From Thermococcus indicus (GTDB lineage Archaea > Methanobacteriota_B > Thermococci > Thermococcales > Thermococcaceae), in contig NZ_CP040846.1 in the NCBI RefSeq assembly GCF_006274605.1, positions 1,929,041 through 1,993,040 on the forward strand: a stretch of DNA of 64,000 nt. Reading direction: 5' to 3'. Under the pieces are notes generated by a model. That model worked only from the letters and a program-made list of their open reading frames with translations, was not told the origin of the DNA and searched no databases. The position numbers were made by a program, and so were the translations under genes. Position 1 is the stretch's first letter. Each line of letters begins with the position of its first letter. Below are positions 10,125 to 54,002 of the stretch, in pieces.

Positions 10125-10135
10125 AGTTTTTAAAC
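10125..10135 (+). promoter_or_regulatory. TATA box for the C/D sRNA and downstream gene
   Basis: AGTTTTTAAAC lies about 35 bases before the C/D box RNA terminal stem, so transcription would start close to the sRNA 5' end. No second promoter is seen before the ATG at 10237, so RNA and mRNA probably share this promoter. Confidence 0.5.
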
Positions 10136-10167
10136 ACTCGTGTATAGTACTGTACTGAAATGTGCAC

Positions 10168-10233
10168 GCCACCAGTGATGAGTGTCATCCCTCCTGATGC
10201 CAAGATGATGACATTATCCCCACCTGAGGTGGT
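10168..10233 (+). ncRNA. C/D box sRNA (2'-O-methylation guide)
   Basis: All parts of an archaeal C/D sRNA are present in order: terminal stem CCACC (10169-10173), C box GTGATGA (10175-10181), a 12-nt guide GTGTCATCCCTC, D' box CTGA (10194-10197), a 7-nt linker, C' box ATGATGA (10205-10211), a 12-nt guide CATTATCCCCAC, D box CTGA (10224-10227), and stem strand GGTGG (10228-10232). Both guides have the standard 12-nt length. By the D+5 rule each would direct methylation of the target base paired to the fifth guide nucleotide before CTGA. The RNA ends 4 bases before the next ATG and contains that gene's ribosome site. Targets not identified. Confidence 0.88.
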
Positions 10234-10236
10234 TTC

Positions 10237-10701
10237 ATGCTTGGATTCTTCAGAAAAAAGAAGAAGGAAACCCACGGCCCGCTCGTATATCTGAGCGAGC
10301 CGACCATACTCTACCACACCCACACAGAGCGGGCTATCCTGGAGATACTCGAGGAGAAGCTCGACTCCAACAACTTTGTAATCCCCTCCGACTACGGCCT
10401 CAGAACCACCGACCACCTGATTCCCGAGGCGGAGATATTCGTGGCGATAGCCATAGTCGGCAAGTTCACCTCCCTCGTCGTCAGGGAGATTGAGATAGCC
10501 AGGGAGTACGGAAAGAAAATCTACACCCTCGATGTGGCCAGAAAGGACGACGAGATACTCTACCTCTTCGAGGAGGGGATTCCGGAGAGGATCGAGTGGC
10601 TGACGCCGGAGGAAACCCAGAGCCTCTACGCGGCCTTCCGCGGCGAGGACTTCTCGGGCTTCATGAAGTTCTTCTTCGGCGACAGGAAGAGGCAGTGGTA
10701 A
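10237..10701 (+). CDS. Conserved hypothetical protein, cytosolic, possible nucleoside-deoxyribosyltransferase-like fold
   Basis: 154 residues; begins with a basic stretch (FRKKKKE) and then a soluble alpha/beta sequence. The order of strands and helices, with DHLIPEAEIFVAIAIVG and VVREIEIAREYGKKIYTLD, is reminiscent of the nucleoside 2-deoxyribosyltransferase/TIR-like Rossmannoid group, but no catalytic motif can be named with confidence. Its ribosome site GAGGTGG lies inside the D box and terminal stem of the C/D sRNA just upstream, so sRNA folding or processing would affect its translation. Function unknown. Confidence 0.75.
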   Translation: MLGFFRKKKKETHGPLVYLSEPTILYHTHTERAILEILEEKLDSNNFVIPSDYGLRTTDHLIPEAEIFVAIAIVGKFTSLVVREIEIAREYGKKIYTLDVARKDDEILYLFEEGIPERIEWLTPEETQSLYAAFRGEDFSGFMKFFFGDRKRQW

Positions 10702-52041: not shown

Positions 52042-53316
52042 ATGAAAGCGTACCTTGCCGAGAACGTCAGGGGCATCTACGCCTTTGACGAGAGCGGTAA
52101 TCTCATTGATCAGAGGGTCTTCTCCGGAAGGCCGGAAGCGAGCCTTGACAAGCTCCTGAAGGGCGAGCCAAGCGACGAGCTGGTTTCTTTCCTCGACGAG
52201 CTTAGGGAGAGGGGCTACGACGAGTTTGTGGTGGAAGACTCCGAACTGGGGAGGGCGCTGAAGGAGCTCGGCTACAACGCAACCGCCGAGTTCCCGAACA
52301 TCGCCGGAGAGAAGCTCCGCTCAAGCCCGGAGGAGTTCCTCGGCGAGAACTGGTTCGACGAGTACTTTGGGGTTGGCGTTGCCCTGACCAGGCTCCGCAT
52401 ACAGGAGCAGAGCGGAGCAAGGGACAAGATGATAATCCAGGCCATCGAGGCCCTTGACGATATAGACAAGGTCACCAACCTTCTCGTCTCCAGGCTGAGG
52501 GAGTGGTACGGCCTGCACTTCCCGGAGCTCGATGAGATACTCCCGAGGCACGAGCAGTACGTGGCGTTCGTCAAGACCGTTGGCTCGAGGGACAACGTCA
52601 GCGAGGAGAGGCTCAGGAGCCTTGGTTTCCCGGATTCCAAGGTGGAGAAGATACTGAAGGCTGCTGAAAAGTCAATGGGCGCTCCGCTCGGCAAGTTCGA
52701 CAGCGACATCATAATGAAACTGGCCAGCGAGATAAACGACCTCTACAAGCTCAGGAAGGAGATAGAGGACTACCTGGAGACGGCCATGGACGAGGTCGCA
52801 CCGAACCTGAAAGCTTTGGTCGGCGCCAAGCTCGCCGCCCGCCTTATGAGCCTCGCGGGGGGACTCAAGGAGCTCGCCATAATGCCCGCATCGACGATAC
52901 AGGTCCTCGGTGCAGAGAAGGCCCTCTTCAGGCACCTGAGGAGCGGTGCCAAACCTCCGAAGCACGGCGTCATCTTCCAGTATCCAGCTATAAACCGCTC
53001 GCCGTGGTGGCAGAGGGGTAAGATCGCGAGAGCTTTGGCAGGAAAGCTCGCTATAGCGGCGCGCGTTGACTACTTCTCCGGCGAGTACATAGCAGAGGAG
53101 CTGAAACAGGAGATAGAGCAGCGCATCCAGGAGATAAAGCAGAAGTACCCGAACCCGCCCAAGAGGAAGGCCAAGCCGGAAAAGAAGAAAAAGAAGAAGT
53201 TCAAGGGGAAGGAAAAGCGGGGCAAGGGCTTCGGCGGCAAGAAGAAGGAAAAGGCCGGAAAGGGTAAGAAGGGCGAGAAGGGCGGAAAGAAAAAGAAGAA
53301 GGGCGGCAAGAGGTGA
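52042..53316 (+). CDS. nop5: Nop5 (Nop56/58), C/D sRNP core protein
   Basis: 424 residues. N-terminal fibrillarin-binding domain, a central coiled coil (about 120-250), and the NOP domain with LVGAKLAARLMSLAGGL and ASTIQVLGAEKALFRHL, which binds the L7Ae-kink-turn RNP. The C-terminal about 50 residues are a Lys/Gly-rich tail of low complexity. With fibrillarin and L7Ae it methylates rRNA guided by C/D sRNAs such as the one at 10168. GAGGGTG precedes; ATG 52042 gives best spacing among three ATGs in a row. Confidence 0.96.
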   Translation: MKAYLAENVRGIYAFDESGNLIDQRVFSGRPEASLDKLLKGEPSDELVSFLDELRERGYDEFVVEDSELGRALKELGYNATAEFPNIAGEKLRSSPEEFLGENWFDEYFGVGVALTRLRIQEQSGARDKMIIQAIEALDDIDKVTNLLVSRLREWYGLHFPELDEILPRHEQYVAFVKTVGSRDNVSEERLRSLGFPDSKVEKILKAAEKSMGAPLGKFDSDIIMKLASEINDLYKLRKEIEDYLETAMDEVAPNLKALVGAKLAARLMSLAGGLKELAIMPASTIQVLGAEKALFRHLRSGAKPPKHGVIFQYPAINRSPWWQRGKIARALAGKLAIAARVDYFSGEYIAEELKQEIEQRIQEIKQKYPNPPKRKAKPEKKKKKKFKGKEKRGKGFGGKKKEKAGKGKKGEKGGKKKKKGGKR

Positions 53317-53321
53317 GGTAG

Positions 53322-54002
53322 ATGAGGATTAAGAAGGGCAAGTTCCCCGGTGTTTACGTCTTCGTTGATGAGGACGGGAGTGAGAGGATAGCCACCAAGA
53401 ACCTCGTTCCGGGCCAGAAGGTCTACGGCGAGAGGCTGATAAAGTCCGAGGGTGAGGAGTACAGGATATGGAATCCGAGCAGGTCGAAGCTCGGTGCGGC
53501 CATACTGAACGGTCTCGAGAACTTCCCGATAAAGCCAGGCTCAAAGGTTCTCTACCTCGGAGTCGCGAGCGGAACCACCGCCAGCCACGTCAGCGACGTC
53601 GTTGGCTGGGAGGGTAAGGTATTCGGCGTTGAGTTCTCCCCGCGCGTCCTGAGGGAGCTGGTGCCCCTTGTGGAGGAGCGCAGGAACCTCGTCCCGATAC
53701 TCGGCGACGCCACCAAGCCGGAAGGTTACCGCGCACTCGTGCCGAAGGTTGACGTTATCTTCGAGGACGTCGCCCAGCCGACGCAGGCAAAGATACTCAT
53801 AGACAACGCCAGGGTCTTCCTGAAGAGCGGCGGCTACGCCATGATAAGCGTCAAGAGCAGGAGCATCGACGTCACCAAGGAGCCCGAGCAGGTCTTCAAG
53901 GAGGTCGAGAGGGAGCTCTCCGAGTACTTCGAGGTCGTTGAGAGGCTTTCGCTCGAGCCCTACGAGAAGGATCACGCGCTGTTCGTCGTGAGGAAACCGT
54001 GA
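53322..54002 (+). CDS. flpA: Fibrillarin-like rRNA/tRNA 2'-O-methyltransferase
   Basis: 226 residues. S-adenosylmethionine fold with [46 protein letters not shown] and [12 protein letters not shown]; the K-D-K-H-type catalytic residues fit the family. Catalytic subunit of C/D sRNPs. It follows nop5 by 5 bases with a GGTGAGG ribosome site, the usual archaeal nop5-fibrillarin operon. Confidence 0.96.

Follow-up and report, generated by a model that had tools for sequence, protein, structure and literature searches.

The last bases of the C/D box sRNA sR55 in Thermococcus indicus are also the Shine-Dalgarno sequence of the gene that follows it, and this double use of the same letters was conserved across the Thermococcaceae. 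The D box and terminal stem, CTGAGGTGG (10224-10232), hold the Shine-Dalgarno GAGGTGG (10226-10232, forward strand), of which GA belongs to the D box and GGTGG to the 3' strand of the stem, and the ATG at 10237 follows after just four letters, TTTC. We consider it quite likely that the locus as a whole yields one transcript that is either translated or processed into sR55. Positions refer to the window, the whole 64,000-nucleotide stretch of T. indicus DNA that was analysed (NZ_CP040846.1 1,929,041-1,993,040, forward strand); the genome itself is designated G000.

The sR55 sRNA, its promoter and the downstream gene

The sRNA extends from the 5' to the 3' strand of its terminal stem at 10169-10232 of the forward strand, and Rfam assigned 10171-10229 to sR55 (RF01307) with 63.3 bits against a curated cut-off of 35. 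The 5' stem strand CCACC (10169-10173), which pairs with GGTGG (10228-10232), is followed by the C box GTGATGA (10175-10181), the D' guide GTGTCATCCCTC (10182-10193), the D' box CTGA (10194-10197), the C' box ATGATGA (10205-10211), the D guide CATTATCCCCAC (10212-10223) and the D box CTGA (10224-10227), whose GA opens the Shine-Dalgarno sequence. The sequence had the layout of an archaeal C/D sRNA: the boxes follow each other as C, D', C' and D, each guide has about 12 nt, and the terminal stem forms a k-turn, laid out as CCACC, a 3-nt bulge AGT and the GATGA of the C box on one side and CTGA running directly into GGTGG on the other. The boxes, guides and stem letters given in the initial annotation were all found on re-reading the sequence, Rfam independently agrees, and the element was confirmed as a genuine C/D sRNA. 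The CCACC/GGTGG closing stem held as to its letters, while its five base pairs with the AGT bulge were seen only in this genome and G025, the stem elsewhere being mostly a 3-bp ACC/GGT.

The initial annotation had also suggested a search of the two guides against rRNA, and the best matches of both were in the 23S rRNA of the genome itself. Ten Watson-Crick pairs joined the D' guide to 23S 2516-2525 and nine joined the D guide to 23S 2538-2546 (TGGGGATAA), for which the D+5 rule predicts methylation at G2519 and G2541 (the genome's own 23S numbering). Single-guide runs as good as these occurred in 98 and 486 of 5,000 shuffles and are thus singly not very rare given the base composition of the guides, and none of 20,000 joint shuffles placed both matches as close together as the 22 nt found here. 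The GGGGATAAC stretch of the 23S rRNA is one that we take to lie in the peptidyl-transferase region.

The only apparent promoter for the sRNA and the gene was a TATA-like box, TTTTTAAA, at 10127-10134 of the forward strand, and an identical element was located at equal distance in G025. By analogy with T. kodakarensis, in which the published start site lies 26 nt downstream of the first base of TTTAAG, the window transcript would be expected to start near 10155. The T. kodakarensis orthologue is listed in Table 1 of PMC9014305 as sR52 (alias Tko-sR54), with a circular junction at 1476851-1476917 (67 nt) and 28,701 small-RNA reads. Circular reads numbered 467, against 6 in the RNA-ligase knock-out, and the start site given there, 1476850, was taken from PMC4247193; RNA ends in that study were grouped within +/-5 nt. 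The sR55 match in this genome (G023) was at 1476852-1476910 and the downstream ATG at 1476918, and the positions of sR55, the gene start, sR61 and sR31 agreed with the published table. Set against these coordinates, the table has transcription starting 1 nt ahead of the sRNA, which ends at the base before the ATG (+/-5 nt), and the mature orthologue RNA takes the whole Shine-Dalgarno sequence along. With this start site and a single TATA-like box in the window, one promoter probably serves both sRNA and downstream ORF, as had been proposed. The T. kodakarensis orthologue exists as a stable small RNA (PMC9014305), and the true 3' end of the window sRNA may be nearer 10236 than 10233, since the published RNA (67 nt, +/-5) reaches the base before the ATG.

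The downstream gene is an open reading frame of 154 amino acids (10237-10701, forward strand). Its protein matched no Pfam family and came near the cut-off of nothing in NCBIfam, while a fold search returned weak nucleoside 2'-deoxyribosyltransferase/TIR-like matches (best E 6e-3). The protein, in which a TSLVVxE-like stretch is conserved, is possibly distantly like the nucleoside 2'-deoxyribosyltransferases. Comparison with PDB sequences gave a short match to UvrA (E 6e-4), confined to residues 8-62, and this identity was not believed.

Conservation and loss of the coupling

sR55 was detected in 85 of 94 Thermococcaceae genomes, the downstream protein in 84 and both in 83. None of 14 control genomes contained sR55, and in a set of 115 genomes from the phylum the matches were confined to family members; presence in 85/94 family genomes and 0/14 controls puts sR55 far beyond chance. 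A search for related loci in named genomes returned three Thermococcus assemblies only. The sRNA stood directly before the gene at 80 loci, in 79 of the 83 genomes holding both, with one assembly having two loci; G056 carries two copies of the sR55-gene unit and is perhaps a mixed assembly. Measurements were made on 79 loci, leaving out G048, in which the contig starts inside the stem, yet which reads alike.

Every coupled locus read GGTG immediately after the D box (79/79 measured), and in all 79 the D-box GA and the stem GGT fell within GAGGTG, so that the Shine-Dalgarno sequence is inside or flanking the k-turn. The D box was CTGA in 75 of the 79 and CCGA in the other 4, and lay 9-11 nt from the start codon across the coupled loci, while the sequence from GGTG to the start codon varied, as did that 5' of the sRNA. 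The initial annotation's proposal that the D box and stem double as the ribosome site of the next gene was thus borne out by the sequence and across relatives. The boxes and guides were kept along with the gene, rather than being lost where the gene stays, the outcome that the initial annotation had regarded as contrary to its reading. On the other side of the stem, the 5' strand was ACC in 66 and GCC in 10 of the 79 loci. Traced on a phylogeny of the downstream proteins, the position opposite the U of GGU had changed at least 12 times and GGTG not at all. Wobble tolerance, A and G both pairing with U, can be behind part of this asymmetry; three loci had a stem mismatch while the U stayed unchanged.

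Upstream of the sRNA, several unrelated flanks were observed, each common to genomes that differ in the downstream gene and each breaking at the 5' end of the sRNA, an arrangement suggestive of recombinational exchange on the promoter side; the window and G025 are one example of such sharing. A conserved element of about 110 nt was located directly 5' of sR55 in 28 loci (about one third) from at least three genera and is absent from the window. This element, for example at about 1392-1500 of L050, has its own TATA-like box AAAAGCTTATTAA and the motifs GGGATGA, AACCGATGACA and GAAAxAAxGCC; Rfam gave no match for it, no consensus fold emerged, and a search of seven genomes turned up no convincing further copy.

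Four genomes, G075, G079, G084 and G001, held both parts with the coupling lost. A flavodoxin-like gene, named from its sequence, lies between sR55 and the gene in the first three, where the gene is equipped with a TATA-like box of its own and retains GAGGTGAT and sR55 retains its stem. sR55 and the gene are on different contigs in G001, the sR55 stem there being GCC/GGC, a paired change, with GAGGTG gone, and the gene having its own GGGGTGAT. In this one case the shared letters appear to have drifted once the stem alone was under constraint. Since both parts persist in the uncoupled genomes, sRNA and gene can work singly and the coupling is dispensable rather than essential.

The existence of uncoupled genomes would fit mere compaction, to which we give an even chance: the sRNA would use the gene's promoter, its D box and GGTG stem would happen to make a good Shine-Dalgarno sequence, and the overlap would be kept without regulatory use by a double constraint on letters that are hard to separate. 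C/D sRNAs are often without promoters of their own and overlap gene ends (PMC7994747), and CUGA with a G-rich stem after it comes close to being a Shine-Dalgarno sequence, so that the fusion arises easily and did so several times. Compaction alone, however, leaves unexplained why the fusion was kept in 79 of 83 genomes despite widely varying upstream flanks. It is compatible with a transcript of two fates and denies only that a switch was selected.

Proposed fates of a probable shared transcript

The two fates would run as follows. One promoter would give one transcript starting at or just before sR55 and running into the 154 amino acid gene, in which the D-box GA and the stem GGTG that close the sRNA double as the Shine-Dalgarno sequence of the gene. 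A ribosome pairing with GAGGTG would lead to translation. Alternatively, L7Ae, Nop5 and fibrillarin would fold the C/D boxes into a k-turn that hides the bases of GAGGTG, after which the sRNA would be cut out and in part circularised, the gene being left without a Shine-Dalgarno sequence and the excised sR55 guiding two methylations near the peptidyl-transferase centre of the 23S rRNA. The genes for Nop5 and fibrillarin, reported in the initial annotation at 52042-54002, were identified there by Pfam. From this anatomy we infer that sRNP assembly and ribosome binding are structurally incompatible on one molecule, and one transcript probably serves only one of the two uses. The structural argument is helped by the S. 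acidocaldarius l7ae leader, in which L7Ae on a k-turn masks the Shine-Dalgarno sequence (PMC5539422), and by a review, according to which reporter output fell when an sRNA overlapped the 5' end (PMC7994747). Counted against the two fates was a local, protein-free pairing of the Shine-Dalgarno sequence with the guide (CCACC-UGA-GGUGG), which is weak at growth temperature. Simple regulation by this protein-free hairpin was rejected, as the pairing is marginal at 70-85 C and is broken in G046, G052 and G063.

Masking by L7Ae would also be expected if the element were solely a cis-regulatory k-turn, that is, an L7Ae-controlled leader resembling a C/D sRNA, and leaders of this snoRNA-like kind in T. 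kodakarensis have been raised as such (PMC4247193), with the masking itself described in PMC5539422. Such an explanation is largely contradicted and very improbable here, since conservation extends to both guides and to their matches in 23S rRNA, the orthologue is found as an abundant, circularised small RNA bearing sRNA ends, and sR55 persists without the adjoining gene.

The position of the published 3' ends, at the base before the ATG for sR52 and 2 nt before it for sR61, points to another possibility, in which excision makes the message: a cut near the base before the ATG would release a leaderless mRNA that is still translated, both products then coming from one transcript. In T. kodakarensis, leaderless transcripts make up about 14% of the mRNAs (PMC4247193). 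The ends are known to +/-5 nt, however, and circular RNAs may be trimmed first, while the conserved spacing from Shine-Dalgarno sequence to start suggests that leadered initiation matters, and we regard this outcome as improbable. Exclusive use of each transcript as either message or guide is the reading that we retain.

Recurrence at other genes and relation to known systems

A search for the pattern C' box, guide, CTGAGG and ATG gave matches in 90 of 94 genomes, with a maximum of 13 in any one genome, and the reversed control pattern was mostly absent, with at most one match per strand. Many of the matches were internal D' boxes, and the contexts were therefore read singly. A strict pattern had 13 overlapping matches (about 11 places) in T. 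indicus, two of them with a fusion of D box and Shine-Dalgarno sequence. Besides sR55, like fusions were found at a Nudix gene (genus g1) and at FEN-1 and cobalamin adenosyltransferase genes (genus g3), the three names having been read from the protein sequences without a family search. The Nudix-like case in T. indicus (G000:C1:1903794-1903850; about 1500-1557 of L107) again had CTGAGGTGG, with the ATG 9 nt after the D box, and corresponds to sR61/Tko-sR67 in the table of PMC9014305. Like sR55, sR61 has CTGAGGTG and then the ATG and is transcribed from a start site close to the sRNA 5' end, 2 nt away in this case, and its 3' end lies near the ATG, 2 nt before it; the guides and the downstream Nudix gene differ from those of sR55. 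Among the 23 readable circular-RNA ends published for T. kodakarensis, two had the fusion and two more (sR29 and sR46) ended at the start of an ORF. A C/D-like sRNA at L099 (G000:C1 near 482496-482528, reverse strand) was of a different kind, its C box containing in-frame ATGs of a long frame that runs past the sRNA.

Such recurrence could be taken to mean that the D box used as a Shine-Dalgarno sequence is a switch that recurs in archaea, in which free L7Ae, Nop5 and fibrillarin would set the choice of guide or message for each transcript and tie ribosome maturation to the output of a few genes (the 154 amino acid gene, the Nudix hydrolase, FEN-1 and cobalamin adenosyltransferase). We consider a selected switch of this kind unlikely, much less probable than the plain description of two fates. 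Two RNA functions occupy the same seven letters in a clean, testable and family-wide system with natural uncoupled controls, and should the exclusion hold inside cells, the output of an rRNA methylation guide would be tied directly to the translation of specific genes. A simple rule, CUGA, then GGUG and a start codon 9-11 nt on, can be used to search for more cases.

sR55 itself, C/D sRNAs at the 5' ends of genes and masking by L7Ae are already known. A D box serving as a Shine-Dalgarno sequence, deeply conserved and recurrent, was not found described in the literature searched, with Tripp et al. 2017 outside that search. The RNA family, boxes, guides and genomic place of the window sRNA are those of Rfam sR55 (RF01307), Tko-sR54 and sR52; published lists give Tko-sR54/sR52 as a C/D sRNA, and the identity of D box and Shine-Dalgarno sequence and its spread were not found stated in them. 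The 5'-overlapping C/D sRNAs of a 2017 survey, as described in a review (7% of genes in the surveyed set; PMC7994747), likewise lie at the 5' end of an ORF and are released from a shared transcript. The start codon is within the sRNA in the cases covered there, whereas at sR55 the Shine-Dalgarno sequence is the D box and stem, with a fixed distance to the start across the family. The l7ae leader of S. acidocaldarius (PMC5539422) resembles the window in having a k-turn beside the Shine-Dalgarno sequence and L7Ae as the binding protein, but it is a simple k-turn that provides feedback on L7Ae, whereas sR55 is a complete sRNA with two guides, which is cut out of its transcript and would act in trans.
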